Assembly: GCA_011390695.1 (NCBI GenBank)
Contig: JAABRW010000032.1
Location: forward strand, 1-6,811
Source of the DNA: Desulfotignum sp.
Lineage (GTDB): Bacteria; Desulfobacterota; Desulfobacteria; Desulfobacterales; Desulfobacteraceae
Length of the DNA stretch: 6,811 bases
Direction of reading: 5' to 3'
A model generated the notes under the pieces. That model was not told the origin of the DNA, made no database searches, and saw only the letters and a list, made by a program, of their open reading frames with translations. This document shows positions 1 to 6,811 of this stretch, in pieces (within the stretch, counting starts at the first letter, position 1; each line of letters starts with the position of its first letter). A program made the translations under genes and the position numbers.

Positions 1-1221
1 AAATATATTGCGCTGACTCAGGTAGTTGTGGGCCTCGTCGATGACCAGGATGGAGCGAATGGTTCGCCGGCCATCCCGGACCGGGCTGTCAGGCAACAAT
101 GCCATCTCTTTATAAAGACGTTCGATCACCAGATACGCCACCAGTTCCTTTAAAACCGGCATGGCATGGACATCGATCAGCAAAGTTCTACTGGAAATTT
201 TGTCGATGGGTGCCACATCACTTCCATGCCGCCAGAACAGATCAAAATCCGAAAGGTCCCGCAAAACTTCGATAAGGCTGTCATCTTTTTTATTATCCGC
301 TTCATACATGTCGGCAACCATGCGGTACACATCATGAAAATCCGGATATGGGGTATTTGAATCGGCTCGTTGTGCATAAGCTGCCCGGATCGCCTCGGTC
401 AATGCGCCTCTTTGTACCACTCCCAGTTTGCTGTTAATGGAAGCAAAGCTTTCCGCCTTTTCACGGGCTGACACATTTACTGTCTGTTCATCGTAGCCAG
501 GCAGAACAAAAGGATTGATGGGCAGGCTCTCTCCACCCTGGAGTAGCCGAAAGGGATGGACCTTGGCAGCCTCCAGGAATCGTTCATTGTCCACCACATC
601 CCCTTTGTAATCGAAATAAATGAAATTGGTCTGATAATTAGATTGTTGGCGAATATCGGTCAAAATCTTTAAAACAAACTGTGTTTTTCCAGTACCGGGT
701 TTGCCCATGATGGCCAGGTGGGAGTTGGCATGTTTGGCGGTATTGTTGATCTCCATGATCATTTCCTGCTGCTGCAAAAGTGTCCGGCCGATAAAAATAT
801 CCAGACCATGCCCTGCTGTTTCCCGCCGCCCCCCAAATTCAACTTCTTCAACCAAGCGCATCAAAAGGCTGTCCGCATCACGGCCGCATTCCTGATACAA
901 CCTCCCCATCAATTCAGCACCGCTGTCAATATGATTTTTGACAATGGAACGATTGGAAAAAAACCTGTCTTCATCCATGTCACTTTTGTTGTAAACGTGA
1001 GAGATCAGCGCCCGCATAAAAATTTCGTCTTCACCCACAAACGTGGGGCGTTTCATCTCAGCGCCGGAAAAACTGGTGCTCGGTACCACATCTGGCCCTT
1101 CCTTTGTCAGGGAGATGGCAAAAGCCATGCGTGCCAGGGTTGCCTTTTCCAGTTTGGTTTCAAATCTCAGGGCGCTGAGAACTTCGTCCGCTTCATTGGA
1201 TGTGTACAGTCGATCGGCCAT
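1..1221 (-). CDS. DndE-type domain fused to HerA/FtsK-like ATPase (3' end outside window)
   Basis: The reading frame is open from ATG at 1221 to the window edge: 407 codons, no stop. It starts 3 bp after the dndD-like stop, with GGGAGA just upstream inside that gene. Residues 1 to about 125 resemble DndE (DUF1832), the small DNA-binding protein of phosphorothioation systems, with the stretch TLARMAFAIS at 28-37 as the clearest mark. A HerA/FtsK-type ATPase follows: GRT entry at 145-147, Walker A GKPGTGKT at 173-180, FDYKGD at 203-208, INPF at 235-238, Walker B ILVIDEAH at 391-398. Family knowledge: HerA-type ATPases are hexameric DNA translocases, and DndE alone is about 110-130 residues, so the fusion couples DNA binding to a motor. 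Translocation or remodelling of marked or foreign DNA is inferred. The ATPase assignment is firm; the DndE assignment is from remembered family pattern. The arginine finger and C-terminal part lie outside. Confidence 0.82.
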   Translation of the reverse strand, partial: MADRLYTSNEADEVLSALRFETKLEKATLARMAFAISLTKEGPDVVPSTSFSGAEMKRPTFVGEDEIFMRALISHVYNKSDMDEDRFFSNRSIVKNHIDSGAELMGRLYQECGRDADSLLMRLVEEVEFGGRRETAGHGLDIFIGRTLLQQQEMIMEINNTAKHANSHLAIMGKPGTGKTQFVLKILTDIRQQSNYQTNFIYFDYKGDVVDNERFLEAAKVHPFRLLQGGESLPINPFVLPGYDEQTVNVSAREKAESFASINSKLGVVQRGALTEAIRAAYAQRADSNTPYPDFHDVYRMVADMYEADNKKDDSLIEVLRDLSDFDLFWRHGSDVAPIDKISSRTLLIDVHAMPVLKELVAYLVIERLYKEMALLPDSPVRDGRRTIRSILVIDEAHNYLSQRNIF

Positions 1222-1224
1222 GGT

Positions 1225-3216
1225 TTAATTCTCCCAGAAATATCCTTCCTGAAATGTCGTCAACTCCCGCTGCTGATCAAATACCAGTCTTCCGGCACCA
1301 TTGAGAAAAATTTTGAGCGTTCGGTAATAGTTCTTGTCGATTTCGGTGTCCGTGGACAGTATGATCACCTGTTCTCCGGCATTGGGAAAATAATTGTTGA
1401 CGATGTTATCCCTGTGGGTGCTGTCCAGCCGGGACAAAGGGGTATCGATCACAATGGGCAGTTTCAGCTGACTGGTCTGAGCCAGGCCCCACAACAAAGA
1501 AACAGCGAACACTTCCTTTTCGCCGGCGGAAAGCCCGGATTTCTTGATCTCATGACCATTTCGGTCGGAAATACGAATTTCATAAGTCTTGTCATCAATG
1601 ATAATATCCTTGATCAACCCGCTGCGGCTGGACAGAAGGTGGTACATTTCAAAGGTTTTTTCTTGCAACAGGTGAACCTTATTTTTCCGAAGCCGCACCA
1701 CGAATTGATTGAGTACGCCGGCAATGGCATCACATTCCTGGATAAATTCAGCCCGCTCCCTGGAGACATGATGCCTTTCGTACAGTCTTTCAATCTCCAT
1801 CTCGATGGCGGTGATCCGGTGTTCAAGCCCAAGCAATTCCTCCTCCAGCAACCGCAATTGTTCCGATTTCCGTCCAATCTGGGTGGCGCAGCTCTCAATT
1901 TCTGCATTGAGCTGCTCGAACAGCTGGGTTTCGGATTCACTCATCATGCCTGTCTGGCTTAATCCTTCAAGCTTGCGGACCTGAGAGGCCAGTTCTCTTT
2001 TTTCCTCCAGCAATGGTTTGAGCAGAAACACATCCCCGTTTTCCAAAGATTCCATCTTGTTGAGTACTCGTGCCGCATCACGGTCGGAAAGATTCAATAT
2101 CCGAAGTACCTCTCCTTTGGAATCTCCCTCCCTGAGCAGCCGAAAGATGCGCCGTTCCAGCTCTGCCATTTTTTCATTTGACAATGTCTCCCGATAAATC
2201 GGTTCGGGCTCTTCCACCACACGGACGATTTTTTTGGCCAAAAAGGCAGCGTTTTCCTTGATGGCTTCACTGCCGGCAGATTCCCTTTCTGCTTCGATCT
2301 GTTGCCGCATCGGCCCAAACAGTCTGCCGGTGATGGCAAACGGCAACATTTTTTCACACAAAGTCCGGATTTCACTTTCTACTTGTGCCAGGCGATTGGA
2401 TGCCTGAATTCGTTTTTTTTCATTGGCTTGCAGGGTTTCACGTGTTTCCGGTTCGGTATGAAAGGCCGCTGAGAAGCGCTGCCTGGCATGCTCCAGCTGT
2501 TCCTTGAACTCAGACAATTCCTGCTGCACCTGCTCCCGCTCTTTCTGACGGCGGGTCAGCTTACTGCGTTCTTTCTTTAACTCACTCTGCTTGAAATCCA
2601 GGTCTTCATCTGAAATTTCCACAAACCCTTTTCGCTCTTCATTTTTGATATAAAGGATGTCAGTGGCCAGTCGGTTAATGTATTGGATCCCCAAGGCCGA
2701 TTCCAGGGATGATTTCAGCCGCACCTCAGAGTGATCGTCGGCTGCAATTGCCTGTATTTTCTCTCCATCAAAGAAAAAAAACTGGGTAATGCCCGGCGGG
2801 ATCATGGAACGGATAAAATCCTGCCAGATTTCCCGGTTTTGAACCGATACTCTTTTCCCATCGCGCACCACCACCAGCCGTTCGGTCAAATCTCGAGGTT
2901 TGGGATCCTCCGTCACACCCGCACTCCAGGAACGTTTGACCACCAGCTCTGACAGGTCATCCATTTCCATCACCAGTTCAAAAGATACCAAAACATTTCC
3001 CCGGGCCTTTTCCCTGCGGTTGATGTTGCGGAAGATTTCGTCCACCTTGGCCCCATACAGACAAAAATTGATCGCTTCCATGATGGAGGTTTTGCCAGCG
3101 CCATTCATGCCCCCGATCAAAAAGATGCTTCGACCGTCTTCATCCATCGGGAAACGAATTTCCGTGGCGAACTGGAATGATTTAAAATTTTCGATGGTCA
3201 GTTTGCGGAATTTCAT
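1225..3216 (-). CDS. dndD: DndD-like SMC/RecF-type ATPase
   Basis: A 663-residue ABC-type ATPase of SMC/RecF/Rad50 architecture, the usual length for DndD. Visible: N-terminal MKFRKLTIENFKSF; Walker A GMNGAGKTS at 36-44 within IFLIGGMNGAGKT, typical of DndD; FFFFDGEKI at 146-154, also typical; charged coiled-coil stretches at about 200-285 and 400-490; ABC signature GLSAGEKE at 561-568; Walker B plus D-loop PIVIDTPLSRLD at 587-598. No CxxC zinc hook lies between the coils. In known Dnd systems DndD is an ATPase working with DndC and DndE in phosphorothioation; that role here is inferred, because dndC is not in the window. The ATG overlaps the previous stop as ATGA, with GGGGA upstream, and dndE-herA follows after 3 bp. 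Its first 51 bp are duplicated at 3886-3936. Alternative: a generic AAA/SMC-like defence ATPase recruited from DndD stock. Confidence 0.85.
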   Translation of the reverse strand: MKFRKLTIENFKSFQFATEIRFPMDEDGRSIFLIGGMNGAGKTSIMEAINFCLYGAKVDEIFRNINRREKARGNVLVSFELVMEMDDLSELVVKRSWSAGVTEDPKPRDLTERLVVVRDGKRVSVQNREIWQDFIRSMIPPGITQFFFFDGEKIQAIAADDHSEVRLKSSLESALGIQYINRLATDILYIKNEERKGFVEISDEDLDFKQSELKKERSKLTRRQKEREQVQQELSEFKEQLEHARQRFSAAFHTEPETRETLQANEKKRIQASNRLAQVESEIRTLCEKMLPFAITGRLFGPMRQQIEAERESAGSEAIKENAAFLAKKIVRVVEEPEPIYRETLSNEKMAELERRIFRLLREGDSKGEVLRILNLSDRDAARVLNKMESLENGDVFLLKPLLEEKRELASQVRKLEGLSQTGMMSESETQLFEQLNAEIESCATQIGRKSEQLRLLEEELLGLEHRITAIEMEIERLYERHHVSRERAEFIQECDAIAGVLNQFVVRLRKNKVHLLQEKTFEMYHLLSSRSGLIKDIIIDDKTYEIRISDRNGHEIKKSGLSAGEKEVFAVSLLWGLAQTSQLKLPIVIDTPLSRLDSTHRDNIVNNYFPNAGEQVIILSTDTEIDKNYYRTLKIFLNGAGRLVFDQQRELTTFQEGYFWEN
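3166..3216 (-). repeat. 51-bp direct repeat, downstream copy (start of intact dndD)
   Basis: This is the live copy, forming codons 1-17 of the DndD-like gene. Together with 3886-3936 it brackets the whole RAMA gene, so recombination between the copies would remove exactly 720 bp and rejoin the 211-residue gene to dndD with the same ATGA junction. Confidence 0.95.
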
Positions 3217-3869
3217 CTTGCCATCCCCTTTTGGATGTACTGTGATCGAATATCTTCAAATGATGTGGTGGTTCCATCAGAATTAACCCGCCGCCAATGA
3301 GTCCAGCCGTTCAAAGAACGCTCAGCCATTTGTGATGCAGCAGTTGATAACGAATTATAAGCTTTCCATCCATCGGGCGTTTTGAGCATCACTTTGCCAT
3401 CATCCATGACCTTACCTTTGTGGACAGGGCCGTTCTTAAGCCATTGCAGTTCCAGATGATCATCAGGGGACAACAAGCCGTCCTGAATGAGATCCAGCAA
3501 TGATACCCCATAATTTTTTTTCTTGCCCCCAGCCGGTCTCGTTGTTTTCAGTCTTTCTCTATGGGACCGGGCGTTTTGGATTGTTTTTCCAAGTGCTCGA
3601 ATAACCGTTTCGACTGCATTTAATTGCTTCTCCACCTCCTGGTTCTGATATCCAGTGACATCCCGGGCGGAGAGTTCCAGTTTGAGGCGGCGCAAATCTT
3701 CCGGCACAGGAATATTGTTACGCTGAAGGTTCTCAACCGCTTTGTTGACAGCCTGCAGTTGCTTGAGTTCCTTTGCAGATAAACCCCGGGGTGGGGCAGA
3801 AATTTGATTCAATTGATCCAGCCATTGATCCAGCGCTTTGATATGGGTCGTTATCTCTTTTGGCAACAT
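3213..3869 (-). CDS. RAMA-domain modified-DNA reader protein with shared helical N-terminus
   Basis: A 218-residue protein. Residues 1-105 are mostly helical and share with the next two upstream proteins the motif VPEDLRRLKLEL at 55-66, preceded by an AVxxL helix. A basic linker (about 108-120, with KKK) leads to a C-terminal module at about 122-195 that reads as a RAMA domain: LIQDGLLSPDDHL, then a beta-rich stretch with KGKVMDDGKV, DGWKAYNSLSTAA and NGWTHW at 187-192. RAMA domains are predicted readers of modified DNA that accompany methylases and restriction enzymes. The start has the strongest ribosome site in the window (AAGGAGG, 5 nt before ATG), and the stop overlaps the dndD ATG as ATGA. 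The gene sits between two copies of the dndD 5' end, which marks it as a late insertion. That it reads a DNA mark and reports it to DndD is inference; no nuclease motif is visible. Confidence 0.8.
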   Translation of the reverse strand: MLPKEITTHIKALDQWLDQLNQISAPPRGLSAKELKQLQAVNKAVENLQRNNIPVPEDLRRLKLELSARDVTGYQNQEVEKQLNAVETVIRALGKTIQNARSHRERLKTTRPAGGKKKNYGVSLLDLIQDGLLSPDDHLELQWLKNGPVHKGKVMDDGKVMLKTPDGWKAYNSLSTAASQMAERSLNGWTHWRRVNSDGTTTSFEDIRSQYIQKGMAR

Positions 3870-3873
3870 AAAT

Positions 3874-3880
3874 CCTCCTT
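3874..3880 (-). promoter_or_regulatory. Strong ribosome binding site of the RAMA gene
   Basis: AAGGAGG sits 4-5 nt before the ATG at 3869 and directly after the stop of the dndD remnant. It is the only near-consensus Shine-Dalgarno site in the window; the other genes use weaker sites or overlaps. It presumably arrived with the inserted gene. Confidence 0.8.
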
Positions 3881-3882
3881 AA

Positions 3883-3936
3883 TCAGGCGAACTGGAATGA
3901 TTTGAAATTTTCGATGATCAGTTTGCGGAATTTCAT
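3883..3936 (-). pseudogene. Remnant of the dndD 5' end (17 codons then TGA)
   Basis: The stretch reads MKFRKLIIENFKSFQFA then stop, identical to the first 17 residues of the DndD-like protein except T7I. Its ATG overlaps the stop of the 211-residue gene as ATGA, exactly as the real dndD ATG overlaps the stop of the RAMA gene. GGGGA lies upstream, so it may still be translated. TGA and a following TAA-containing AAGGAGG site lead straight to the RAMA gene. It is best explained as the original start of dndD, left behind when the RAMA gene entered. It could now serve as a coupling leader for the RAMA gene. Confidence 0.85.
3886..3936 (-). repeat. 51-bp direct repeat, upstream copy (dndD 5' end)
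   Basis: Matches 3166-3216 at 49 of 51 positions, same strand, offset exactly 720 bp. Differences are at 3904 against 3184 (synonymous, Phe codon 11) and 3917 against 3197 (Ile for Thr at codon 7). Similarity stops abruptly at the ATG on one side and after codon 17 on the other. Confidence 0.95.
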
Positions 3937-4568
3937 TTTTGGTCCCCATTAAGCTCCCAATACCCACGTGGGGAATCGCCACGGAGTGTGCCGTCCTGTG
4001 TCATTCTGTAACGCTCCCAATGGGCGCTGTGCTGCCAGACATACATATTGGTGTTTTCACGCCACTCCAAATCACCGGGTAGCAATTCGGCTTTCATCTG
4101 ACGACCCATTTCTTCAAGCACATCTGTAACATTGGCTTTTCCGCCCAAAGTTTGCAAAGCCTTAATGATATTTTTCCGAAGGATCTTTCTATCAGTCCTG
4201 GATGTGTGAAATCTTTTCTTTCGTGACTTAGGGGTTTTGGTTTTACTTTTATTGATACCCAGCCTTTTGTTGAGTTCCTTGACAATGACATCGAGTTCTT
4301 GGGCGAGATGTCGTAATGTCTGATCAGACTGAACCTGAATTTCCAGATTTGCCGCAAGTCGCGTTTTTTCTGCTCGAAGACCGCCCGGAACTGGAACTCC
4401 CTTTTTTTCCAATTGCTCGACTGCTCTGGCTATTTCTCGAAGCTGGGCCTCTTTTTCAGAAGTATTCGAATTGGGTGGTGTACCATCTATCCCGTCAATA
4501 ACATTCCGACACAGCTCAATCAGGAGATTTGGATTTTTGATATAATGATCGATACATTCGTTCATCAT
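3933..4568 (-). CDS. Winged-helix (Mrr-N/HARE-like) reader protein with shared helical N-terminus
   Basis: A 211-residue protein paralogous to its two neighbours in the N-terminal half. It has a short helix with HYxxxPxLLIxL near 8-19, nearly the same in the 214-residue neighbour, then the shared motif VPGGLRAEKTRL at 60-71. A very basic linker (about 105-128, KSKTKTPKSRKKR) precedes a winged-helix module at about 130-208: IIKALQTLGG, then VTDVLEEM, a tryptophan at 178 and another at 184, and DGTLRGDSPRGYWEL closing the wing. This layout matches the N-terminal DNA-binding domain of Mrr-type restriction enzymes and HARE-HTH domains, here without any nuclease. AAAGGA lies 5 nt before the first of two adjacent ATG codons. 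The stop overlaps the ATG of the dndD fragment as ATGA. Role as a DNA-sequence or DNA-modification sensor is inferred. It could instead be the operon's repressor, although it lacks an obvious ligand domain. Confidence 0.72.
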   Translation of the reverse strand: MMNECIDHYIKNPNLLIELCRNVIDGIDGTPPNSNTSEKEAQLREIARAVEQLEKKGVPVPGGLRAEKTRLAANLEIQVQSDQTLRHLAQELDVIVKELNKRLGINKSKTKTPKSRKKRFHTSRTDRKILRKNIIKALQTLGGKANVTDVLEEMGRQMKAELLPGDLEWRENTNMYVWQHSAHWERYRMTQDGTLRGDSPRGYWELNGDQK

Positions 4569-4569
4569 T

Positions 4570-4605
4570 TTATCCTTTGGAAGGGGTGAGTTTAATGGAT
4601 TTCAT
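4570..4605 (-). other. 11-codon mini-ORF between the two winged-helix genes
   Basis: The 41-bp gap between the 214- and 211-residue genes holds ATG followed by MKSIKLTPSKG and TAA, ending 1 bp before the next ATG and containing that gene's AAAGGA site. Its first 21 bases match the dndD start at 16 of 21 positions, and both begin MKxxKLT. It may be an older, eroded dndD start or a coupling leader, or chance. Confidence 0.35.
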
Positions 4606-4609
4606 TTTT

Positions 4610-5254
4610 TTATTTCCTTCGAAGTTCCCAAACTCCAAATCGACTTCCTGATTTTATTGTTCCCGATTTGATCATTTTGGTTTTTTCAGCCACAGCCCAT
4701 TTTTTCCAATTCATGTTTCCTTGAACGTCCTTTTCCAAGTCCTGTGATTTAAATTTACCGTTCAAGTTTTGTTCCATTTTTTGAAGGACTTCAGCCTTTT
4801 TTCCAGATCCTCCCAGCTCCCGCAATGCTTTTCTAAGCTCCTTTGCCAAAATGGCAGGAGATGTTCGCTTAACATACCGTCTAACTTTTGGGATGTATTT
4901 TTTGTCATTTGTGGCGTTTGACAGTATTGCCCGAACCTGCGTAAGACTGTTTCCGAGTCTGAATTCTATCTCCTTAAGGTCTTGGACCGCATTTTGAAAC
5001 CGTTCATTTTCTTTTTCATATGTTTCAGCCTCGTGGGACAACTCAATTTTTAATCTTCGTAACTCATCCGGCACGATCGTTCCTGTTTCCTTGAGCCGAT
5101 CGATGGTTTTAGAAATTTCATTATATTGGATTACTCTATCCGCTTTCATCTCTGGCGGCTTTTTTTGATTGTATCTTTTAATGACCTTGTCCAATATATC
5201 GATAAGTCTGATCGGATCACGGGCATAATGTTCAACCTCCTCGGATTTTTTCAT
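4610..5254 (-). CDS. Winged-helix (Mrr-N/HARE-like) reader protein, second paralogue
   Basis: A 214-residue protein. The start overlaps the stop of the small upstream gene as ATGA, with GGGAAA before it. It has the same plan as the 211-residue neighbour: HYARDPIRLIDIL at 9-21, shared motif VPDELRRLKIEL at 61-72 (closest in wording to the RAMA protein), a charged helical stretch to about 105, a basic linker (about 118-130), and a winged helix at about 135-212 with LRKALRELGG, AEVLQKM, W183 and W186, and SGTIKSGSRFGVWEL. The winged helices of the two neighbours align along their full length, so these are true paralogues; their DNA-contact region differs (SRFGVWEL against SPRGYWEL), which would allow different targets. 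Its codons are AT-richer than those of the flanking dar and dnd genes. No catalytic motif is seen. DNA reading is inferred from the fold pattern. Confidence 0.72.
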   Translation of the reverse strand: MKKSEEVEHYARDPIRLIDILDKVIKRYNQKKPPEMKADRVIQYNEISKTIDRLKETGTIVPDELRRLKIELSHEAETYEKENERFQNAVQDLKEIEFRLGNSLTQVRAILSNATNDKKYIPKVRRYVKRTSPAILAKELRKALRELGGSGKKAEVLQKMEQNLNGKFKSQDLEKDVQGNMNWKKWAVAEKTKMIKSGTIKSGSRFGVWELRRK

Positions 5255-5433
5255 TTCCCGTGCCCCATATTTTTCTTCAGAATTTCCCGCAAAGCATCAT
5301 ATATCCCGGTCCGACGTTCTTTGAACTCATAGTCATAAACCGTTTCCAGCAGTTTTTGCACCTTGACCAGGTTCACATCGTTCTGGCTGCACAATTCACC
5401 AAGTAACTGCTGGTCCTCTTCTGAAAGCTTCAT
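5251..5433 (-). CDS. Small DNA-modification-system-associated protein, 60 residues
   Basis: The ATG at 5433 was chosen because GGGAGAGGA lies 4-12 nt upstream; a GTG five codons earlier overlaps that ribosome site and is unlikely to be the start. The product is an acidic-then-basic helical mini-protein with VNLVKVQKLLETVY followed by YEFKERRTGIYDALREILKK. From memory, proteins with this KERRxGIYDAL ending are annotated as small proteins associated with DNA modification systems and sit beside dnd-type genes; I could not run a search. It follows darG by 22 bp and overlaps the first reader gene by 4 bp (ATGA), so the two are probably translationally coupled. It carries no signal peptide, membrane segment or metal site. 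A role as a bridging or stoichiometric partner of the reader or ATPase complex is a guess. Confidence 0.65.
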   Translation of the reverse strand: MKLSEEDQQLLGELCSQNDVNLVKVQKLLETVYDYEFKERRTGIYDALREILKKNMGHGK

Positions 5434-5436
5434 GGT

Positions 5437-5445
5437 ATCCTCTCC
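5437..5445 (-). promoter_or_regulatory. Ribosome binding site deciding the small-protein start
   Basis: GGGAGAGGA lies just before the ATG at 5433 and overlaps the alternative in-frame GTG at 5448, so it supports the ATG start and a 60-residue product. Confidence 0.65.
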
Positions 5446-5455
5446 CACCTGTTTT

Positions 5456-6493
5456 TTATGCGTTTACCCACCCTTCGATCCGAAGTCTCTCCCAGGCTGA
5501 GTGGATATGTGCCGGCTTGAACAAGTTCCGTTTGCGATCGTTCCAACGGGCCATGGCTGACACAGCAGTTTGTCCGTCAGAAACATCTCCGTCATGGACA
5601 GCTGCCCAGTGAACCGACGCCAGCAGCTCCATGCCATAAGGGGTTTCAAACCCATCCACAAGATCGGCCACTCGCTCAAGATGCCTGGCAGCATTTGCAT
5701 CCTGATTAAGGAACTGGTCAGCAGTTTTATCCGCATCTGGAAGCAAATTTATTTCCACATCCGGTTTCTGGGTATCCCCATACCCCCGGATATGGTGCCC
5801 TTCGAGAATTTCCAGCACTTTGTTTAGATTGTGCGCATAAGGGCCATAGAAGTGTTTGACATACCGCAATTTCAGATCCATGCCTGATTCCTGAAGAAAA
5901 TAAGCCAGCTTCTGTATCTCCAGCAGGGTCAACCGGTATGCAAACCGCGAATACTGCTTCATGAGCTTGATGAGCACGGCCCGGGCCACCGTCATCTTCG
6001 GCTGGGAGGTCCCCACCGGCATATCTCTGGCATCTGGAGCGCCTTTGGGTTCGTAAAGCCTCACCTGAATGTCCGGCATGTTCTTGAATGCCCCTTCGAT
6101 CATGCCCTTGACCCGCGCCCATTGCAACCCTCCCAGTCCGGAACCCAATGGGGGAATGGCAATCGACCGGATTTGCCTTTCCTGTATTTCCCGCACCAGG
6201 GCCTGTAAACCGCTTTCAATATCTTCATACCGGCTTTTGCTTCGCCAGTGGCGCTTGGTTGGAAAATTGACAATATACCTGGGTTTGAACATGTCCCCGA
6301 TTTGATACACGAACATCCGGCCGGGCTGAACCTCATTTCTCCGACAGGCGGCTTCGTATGCCTTGAAATTATCGGGAAACGCCTTCTTGAACTGCAAGGC
6401 AATTCCCTTGCCCATCACCCCGACACAGTTCACTGTATTGACCAGGGCCTCTGCATCGTCTTTAAGGATATTTCCACTGGCGGGTTCAATCAT
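5456..6493 (-). CDS. darG: DarG macro-domain antitoxin (DNA ADP-ribosylglycohydrolase)
   Basis: A 345-residue, two-domain antitoxin of the DarTG system. The N-terminal macro domain (1 to about 150) removes ADP-ribose from thymidine in DNA. It shows GNILKDDAEALVNTVNCVG at 7-25 with the ribose-binding asparagine at 22, the loop VMGKGIALQFK at 26-36, FPTK at 77-80 whose lysine 80 matches the catalytic lysine described for Thermus DarG, and PPLGSGLGGL at 114-123. The C-terminal half (about 170-345) is the toxin-binding domain of DarG, with LEIQKLAYFLQESG at 191-204, HFYGPYAHNLNKVLE at 214-228 and EGHHIRGYGD at 231-240. Full length for the family and apparently intact. It starts 17 bp after the darT stop, with GGGAGGAAAC upstream, the usual toxin-antitoxin arrangement. 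No other macro-domain family has this C-terminal half, so the assignment is strong. Confidence 0.95.
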   Translation of the reverse strand: MIEPASGNILKDDAEALVNTVNCVGVMGKGIALQFKKAFPDNFKAYEAACRRNEVQPGRMFVYQIGDMFKPRYIVNFPTKRHWRSKSRYEDIESGLQALVREIQERQIRSIAIPPLGSGLGGLQWARVKGMIEGAFKNMPDIQVRLYEPKGAPDARDMPVGTSQPKMTVARAVLIKLMKQYSRFAYRLTLLEIQKLAYFLQESGMDLKLRYVKHFYGPYAHNLNKVLEILEGHHIRGYGDTQKPDVEINLLPDADKTADQFLNQDANAARHLERVADLVDGFETPYGMELLASVHWAAVHDGDVSDGQTAVSAMARWNDRKRNLFKPAHIHSAWERLRIEGWVNA

Positions 6494-6510: not shown

Positions 6511-6811
6511 CTAATAATACCAGTGCCGGCAGACGTCCACCGGCAAAGAACAGTTTTTTTGTTCCAGAATACGCTCAACCGTTTTTTTGACAGTGTCATT
6601 CAAAACACCGATCCGAATGATCAGATCCCACGGACAGAATCGGTGCACCAGAAATTCAGCCTGTTTACGTCGCTGACGGTCCATGTCATCCATGGTGTCT
6701 GCCCAGAAATCAGCATATACTATGTTCCAATCCACCTTATCCAAATCATCGGTATTGTCAAACCATTGGGTAAAAGCGGCGATACCGTGGCCGTCGGAAA
6801 AGACAAATTCA
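6511..6811 (-). CDS. darT: DarT DNA thymidine ADP-ribosyltransferase toxin, C-terminal part (5' end outside window)
   Basis: The frame is open from the right edge to TAG at 6511, giving the last 100 residues of a protein that is normally about 200-220 long. The visible part starts EFVFSDGHGIAAFTQWFDN and contains the catalytic block KQAEFLVHRFCPW, whose glutamate is the catalytic residue of DarT, used to transfer ADP-ribose from NAD+ to thymidine in single-stranded DNA. Family knowledge: this arrests replication and can block phage DNA synthesis. The reading is uninterrupted and the key glutamate is present, so the toxin is probably active, though the NAD-binding N-terminal half cannot be checked. 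It lies directly upstream of darG, its antidote, in the same direction. An in-frame TTG at 6744 is internal and not a start. Confidence 0.93.
   Translation of the reverse strand, partial: EFVFSDGHGIAAFTQWFDNTDDLDKVDWNIVYADFWADTMDDMDRQRRKQAEFLVHRFCPWDLIIRIGVLNDTVKKTVERILEQKNCSLPVDVCRHWYY

Follow-up and report, generated by a model that had tools for sequence, protein, structure and literature searches.

Why should an operon that encodes a DndD-type ATPase and a DndE-HerA fusion carry three small paralogous genes in a row in front of dndD? The question is raised by a 6,811-nucleotide (nt) stretch of Desulfotignum sp. DNA, the whole of which is called the window here. It forms a single operon with the look of an anti-phage defence system, all listed genes lying on the minus strand, and encodes DarT (cut), DarG, a small protein (SP, 65 amino acids, aa), A (214 aa), B (211 aa), C (218 aa), DndD (663 aa) and DndE-HerA (cut). 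The proteins A, B and C, called readers below, share an N-terminal domain (N-domain) and differ in their C-terminal heads, and this arrangement is real, ordered and recurrent in close relatives. We give an even chance to the reading that the operon as a whole is a methylation-linked relative of the Dnd systems, in which A, B and C would serve as adaptor-readers of a DndD/DndE-HerA core.

Reader A (4610..5254, minus strand) consists of an N-domain (residues 1-112; 4919..5254) and a winged helix, reader B (3933..4568) of an N-domain (residues 1-112; 4233..4568) and an Mrr_N-like winged helix, and reader C (3213..3869) of an N-domain (residues 1-107; 3549..3869) and a RAMA domain (residues 107-214; 3228..3551). 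An earlier note, made from the letters alone, had described three paralogues with one N-terminal domain. Its reading frames and motifs were correct, and profile-profile comparison now relates the helical N-domains of all three proteins with probabilities of 96-99%. In AlphaFold2 models of A and C, compared by inspection without superposition, the order of the N-terminal helices is similar, with the VP motif just ahead of the third main helix; the domain is all-helical in both models and ends in a long helix. A Pfam scan returned no family for the N-domain, sequence profiles gave nothing significant against the PDB, and no sequence similarity to the DndD coiled coil was detected (best probability 7.1%). 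A fold search with A produced common winged-helix matches over the head only and barely probed the N-domain, and the missing fold match is no evidence for a new fold.

The heads were found largely as the earlier note had described them, with two related winged helices in A and B and one RAMA domain in C (PF18755, E 1.3e-14, 54.4 bits against a cut-off of 35.2; RAMA fold matches to 7ydw and 6pbd). At the level of sequence families its assignment of the winged helices to the Mrr_N/HARE type was not borne out in the window, where neither A nor B matched Mrr_N (PF14338) or, at E values up to 10, HARE-HTH (PF05066). Mrr_N was flagged in 13 of 120 B relatives among the matches listed; in the sister loci it scored below cut-off in B of L018 (28.5 against 29.5) and reached 52.1 bits at L059. 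Other weak Pfam matches, those of A and B as well as those of C apart from RAMA/DUF4357, we attribute to composition. The class of the N-domain and the class of the head agree in 249/250 relatives, from a sample in which full-length matches are over-represented; the N-domain class predicts the head class, and free shuffling of heads is not seen. A tree of 55 N-domains holds one group each for A, B, C, a fourth class termed D (with a helix-turn-helix (HTH)-like head) and solo copies. A separate origin of the RAMA head of L053, apparent in this tree, was not significant in an approximately unbiased (AU) test (p 0.22), nor was the placement of the N-domain neighbouring TmtA (p 0.50), and repeated head switching between clades is therefore not claimed.

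To what extent is the arrangement conserved? Full-length DndE-HerA fusions are present in 2/395 genomes of a phylum sample and, at no less than 69% identity, in 8/389 genomes of an order sample; G001, the genome of locus L001, belongs to both. L001 is a near copy of the window on a Desulfotignum metagenome-assembled contig (JAIPDL010000098.1; 97% identical, 197 substitutions in 6811 aligned bases) and shows the operon in full: HsdM (with an HSDR_N_2 domain), HsdS, DarT, DarG, SP, A, B, C, DndD, DndE-HerA. Loci were examined by tblastn and profile, and seven close relatives were counted, in which DndE-HerA is 75-100% identical to that of L001, dndD is intact and upstream sequence is present. 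Besides L001 these are L018 (HsdM-HsdS-RhuM-SP-B-DndD-DndE-HerA), L049 (HsdM-HsdS-DarT-DarG-SP-B-DndD-DndE-HerA-D), L050 (HsdS remnant-DarT-DarG-SP-C-DndD-DndE-HerA-D), L051 (HsdM/HsdS in one frame-RhuM-SP-C-DndD-DndE-HerA), L052 (DarG part at contig end-SP-C-DndD-DndE-HerA-D) and L053 (HsdM-HsdS-YhcG-SP-A-DndD-DndE-HerA-E). A reader with an N-domain stands directly upstream of dndD in 7/7, the slot being filled by A, B or C depending on the locus. A second N-domain protein follows dndE-herA in four loci. In L049, L050 and L052 it is D, the HTH-like head of which gave weak matches (HTH_40, E 0.0024, in L049; HTH_38, E 0.059, in L050; none in L052); in L053 it is E, with a short, RAMA/DUF4357-like head. 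The count excludes L054, L059, L061 and L062, the loci at contig ends (L055 and L057) and the decayed loci (L056, L058 and L060). Other loci were left unused (L019 and L020; L022-L027, with weak matches; L063, L064 and L065, with a DndE-HerA fragment and two long HerA-matching proteins). The Mrr_N-like protein of L021, whose neighbours are an Eco57I-type methylase and a PLD/SNF2 protein, was dropped for want of a detectable N-domain.

The earlier note had pictured a docking domain carrying swappable modules for DndD and DndE-HerA, and had suggested that homologues be profiled and their neighbours tabulated. This was done, and the homologues do occur beside dndD and dndE-herA in all counted relatives; the linkage stands, and the picture has to give way where it implied free exchange of heads or, as described below, an exclusive tie to dndD. 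The same gene orders bear on two other explanations. The N-domain could be a dimer or hetero-oligomer module through which A, B and C join into one multi-headed reader that contacts the core elsewhere, as its all-helical build with a long last helix, the co-encoding of three paralogues and the headless stand-alone copies without a dndD match would allow. However, only one reader precedes dndD in 6/7 counted loci, and L018 and L051 showed one N-domain protein in total; hetero-oligomers therefore cannot be general, and with the constant adjacency to dndD counting against it as well, we consider this explanation unlikely. That A, B and C are DNA-binding autoregulators of the operon, outside any effector complex, would fit small proteins with winged-helix or HTH-like heads inside a defence operon. 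It fits less well with the four-base ATGA overlap between C and dndD (a like overlap joins SP and A) and with reader slots on both sides of dndD-dndE, and RAMA is not known as a usual repressor head; this explanation appears quite unlikely.

How could three readers have come to stand in a row? Directly 3' of the B stop lies a 54-nt copy of the 5' end of dndD (3883..3936, minus strand; 49/54 identical), the ATGA register of which matches the native B-dndD junction of L049. L001 carries the same copy after B; seven other loci, each with fewer than two readers upstream, were checked as well, and the strongest second match in them reached 27-30 of 54. After A there may be a third, degenerate copy (4573..4605, minus strand), agreeing at 16 of the first 21 nt compared with at most 14 in 200 random pieces, which is suggestive only. 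The 54-nt copy is likely the scar of a cassette insertion, and on the simplest reading B formerly abutted dndD and C would have arrived between them, bringing a second dndD start. It might then be supposed that only C, which adjoins dndD, works, and that A and B are remnants of cassettes inserted before it, as the copies after B and perhaps after A, and the sufficiency of one upstream reader in most counted loci, could indicate. On the other hand, A and B have both stayed intact, in the window as in L001, with 4 and 7 substitutions and ratios of non-synonymous to synonymous divergence (dN/dS) of 0.26 and 0.37, based on few changes, and we regard the leftover explanation as improbable.

A second trace of recombination lies within C. 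Between the window and L001 its N-domain (residues 1-112) has one synonymous and one non-synonymous change, with a synonymous divergence (dS) of 0.013, whereas dS is 0.35 in the part behind it. The difference is concentrated in a tract inside the RAMA head (3261..3512, minus strand), whose borders were chosen post hoc; its 252 nt contain 32 substitutions, where the rate of the remaining sequence would predict about 6, and there is a 6-nt indel. Among the reader genes only this head has diverged between the two loci. The C head of L001 has its nearest match in protein P0057, from which it differs at one residue over a central 53, and its N-domain differs from that of the window at one. Taken together this suggests a head exchange between alleles, and L050 and L051 show the same trend (dS 0.15 in the N-domain, 0.43 in the head). 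As a separate observation, the final 100 nt of the window (positions 12-111) differ from L001 at 18 positions and the preceding 400 nt at 1, which may reflect recombination or an assembly edge.

What kind of machinery do the readers adjoin? DndD (1225..3216, minus strand) is an ABC-type ATPase (TIGR03185, E 1.4e-113, 380.6 bits, above the cut-off of 245.85); its best named model is DndD with 447 bits, and PbeC is near behind with 411. DndE (1..1221, minus strand; cut in the window, 508 aa in L001) is fused to a HerA/FtsK-type ATPase and matches PF08870 (E 5.1e-11, 43.3 bits against a cut-off of 25) and DUF87 (2.4e-7), scoring below the cut-off of TIGR03184 (40.9 against 71.85). SP (5251..5448, minus strand; PF20306, 2.3e-7) corresponds to the C-terminal end of the DndC models (PADLOC DndC, 7.6e-9, model positions 399-457 of 481; TIGR03183, 6.1e-6, positions 390-447 of 447). 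In E. coli, residues 433-482 of DndC and its last helix were placed on DndD by modelling and pull-downs (PMC12193691).

DndC itself was found above cut-off in 0/8 system genomes and also in 0/14 controls, genomes that may be incomplete; three of four weak DndC matches were SP, at model positions 384-447. Upstream of the window, L001 encodes HsdM (PF02384, 3.2e-37) and HsdS (PF01420, 2.7e-9). The earlier note had seen no nuclease in the three paralogues; a nuclease-like domain is present in the operon, as a PD-(D/E)XK-like (HSDR_N_2) domain fused to HsdM upstream of the window. HsdM retains D..ExK together with DPACGS(A/G)GF and (T/A)NPPF in 7/7 aligned sequences, motifs which we take to be those of HSDR_N_2 and of the methylase, respectively. 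No HsdR lies at the locus; its 46 matches in 7/8 genomes fall on the system contig only at about 150 kb (one, in G426) and at more than 0.6 Mb (two, in G682). We infer that methylation replaced phosphorothioation and that the DndC tail stayed. On another reading the operon would be a standard phosphorothioation system to which further genes are added, as the family membership of DndD and DndE would allow; given the outcome of the DndC search and a type I methylase ahead of the core in 5/7 counted loci, this is very improbable.

The core itself has been published. DndE-HerA fusions beside DndD-related ABC ATPases (clade-3), and also SP proteins, were described by Rakesh, Aravind and Krishnan (2024, PMC10853773), who proposed the pair of ABC ATPase and DndE as a DNA-scanning core. 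The operon resembles the clade-3 group in gene content, with DndE and HerA in one polypeptide adjoining a DndD-type ATPase, and differs in that these loci were called a subset of phosphorothioate-modification systems. The main text of that paper has no match for 'DarT', 'RhuM', 'HsdS', 'specificity subunit' or 'macro domain', nor for 'RAMA' as a whole word, and its main-text parts contain no description of the reader family, a type I methylase or cargo. The earlier note knew of no described defence system with this trio; the core is on record, and the listings and main-text passages searched contained neither a family of RAMA or Mrr_N readers beside such a core nor the dndD-start copies, though a 2020 survey of ABC ATPases could describe the family. 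A review that names both DndD and the RAMA domain mentions the latter only in the biography of an author.

The operon shares DndD, DndE and, as SP, the DndC tail with DndABCDE phosphorothioation systems, and differs from them by its type I methylase and by the catalytic part of DndC, not found in the 8 genomes; DndA and DndB are not among its identified genes, no genome-wide search having been made for either. With MADS it has in common HsdM (mad2, 4.6e-33), HsdS (mad5, 1.7e-25) and the HerA part (mad8, 2.9e-22; all PADLOC), models that standard type I and HerA proteins match too, whereas no other mad model occurs among the matches listed for 8 window and 7 locus proteins (the best 25 for DndD, HsdM, HsdS and RhuM), and DndD, DndE and readers are present instead. 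The CxC ABC ATPase systems (PbeABCD) likewise combine an ABC ATPase, DndE and a small protein, but the equivalog match of the operon is DndD and its identified genes include no HKD-helicase (PbeA). From type I restriction-modification it has HsdM and HsdS without an HsdR motor at the locus. The head of C has the RAMA fold of the CcrM C-terminal domain and of MPND, fused in C to the helical N-domain and not to a methylase or peptidase. The winged helix of A, and the Mrr_N flagged in B relatives, recall the N6-methyladenine (6mA)-reading winged helices of type IV enzymes (PMC11037411), except that A and B have no fused nuclease. Searches for mobile relatives found none for A1 and A3 in viral contigs, none for B in phages and plasmids, and none for B of L018 in plasmids. 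With the whole window as query, plasmids yielded 15 records, each covering 6% at most; the majority matched DarG and one matched dndD. DndE-HerA yielded 17 plasmid records, and in none did a single place account for 80% of the query; PHROGs had no match for the 8 proteins.

How might these parts work together? In the adaptor-reader reading, DndD and DndE-HerA would form an ATP-driven DNA-handling core that lost the sulfur chemistry of DndC and retained, as SP, its DndD-binding tail. Self DNA would be marked by the type I methylase, that is HsdM with its PD-(D/E)XK-like domain plus HsdS. The N-domain common to A, B and C would attach readers to the core complex. Their heads, of winged-helix or RAMA type and in sister loci also HTH-like, would contact DNA and report its state, thereby gating translocation or an effector, possibly the nuclease-like domain of HsdM or a cargo protein (DarT, RhuM or YhcG, for example). 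Reader genes would be gained as cassettes through recombination at the conserved dndD start, and heads exchanged between alleles. If this is true, a phosphorothioation machine became methylation-linked, keeping its motor and docking tail and swapping its chemistry and readers, and the copied dndD start and the diverged head tract are a molecular record of a defence system collecting DNA-state sensors. Its parts are small and separable, and the proposal of one motor with several interchangeable readers is therefore testable.

Several observations weigh against this reading. Mean identity is higher in the heads than in the N-domains of all three families (A, 65% and 51%; B, 80% and 70%; C, 63% and 59%), contrary to a simple constant dock with variable readers. 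The RAMA domain of MPND bound DNA irrespective of 6mA (PMC9963953), and a RAMA head therefore need not read methylation. HsdM is present in 5/7 counted loci; L050 has none in 39 kb and the contig of L052 ends before it, so that methylation may not be obligatory. Further parts of the operon are also mosaic relative to L001 (10% divergence in DarT, 18% in the last 100 nt of the window), and recombination is therefore not unique to the C head. In L054 (72%) SP immediately precedes dndD and there is no reader, though its dndD contains an in-frame stop; L059 (37%) has a winged-helix protein before dndD in which the N-domain was unrecognised; and the distant L061 and L062 (about 30%) carry DndD and DndE-HerA without a recognised reader. 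Finally, of the 17/389 order-sample genomes matched by the N-domain profile, 6 have a full DndE-HerA fusion and 11 have none, and in these 11 no DndD match was obtained by the same kind of search that matched 3/3 system genomes.

Is the N-domain then tied to DndD? It is found in 6/8 genomes with a full-length fusion and in 11/381 others (Fisher p 7e-8), a value that is descriptive only because the profile (13 rows) was built from the window and the loci of G386 and of five of the six fusion genomes, the sixth, G001, holding the near copy of the window. The 11 fusion-free genomes all belong to one family, in which 11/22 genomes have the N-domain. Ten of them contain 12 headless copies in open frames of 106-163 aa, and in G649 an N-domain with winged helix adjoins a protein matching PADLOC TmtA, which we take to be Tiamat. 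Solo and reader N-domains are related (93-97% by profile, against at most 1.3% among the shuffled controls listed). Given the headless copies and the TmtA neighbour without a dndD match, the partner of the N-domain need not be DndD. A wider reading makes the N-domain a general socket for readers in prokaryotic immune systems, with winged-helix, RAMA and HTH-like heads, more than one effector class (DndD/DndE-HerA and TmtA-type), moving cassettes and exchanged heads; we put it forward as possible though doubtful. If true, it would be a second modular way, besides the target domains of HsdS, to retune the DNA state that a defence motor answers to.

Two further observations concern these copies. 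At L102:2175-7850 an N-domain protein with winged helix directly follows a TmtA match of 1631 aa whose C-terminal domain is NO VEIN. The headless N-domain genes at L093, L092 and L094 have genes of about 300, 204 and 390 aa as recurrent neighbours. At L093 these encode a protein with a weak TPR match, a GTPase of the Ras/Arf-like type and a protein with cNMP-binding and DUF4388 domains, a set that does not suggest defence.

The remaining genes of the window are those of DarT (6511..6811, minus strand; 3' part only, the gene being cut by the window end; PF14487, E 1.5e-29; NF048013, 1.3e-34) and the antitoxin DarG (5456..6493, minus strand; NF048014, E 4.3e-143). Among the other loci, L061:1502-6904 encodes a DndB between its distant DndD and DndE-HerA (about 23% and 29% identical), with no recognised reader. 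At L051:7276-10056 HsdM and HsdS share one open frame (matching HsdM residues 56-768 and HsdS residues 246-452), which suggests that the methylase is fused to a specificity part of half the usual size. The region upstream of DarTG in L050 (L050:8350-14128) encodes another copy of DarG, which is truncated, along with a Fic-domain protein and an AAA_21 protein, and the HsdS match is down to 51 residues.

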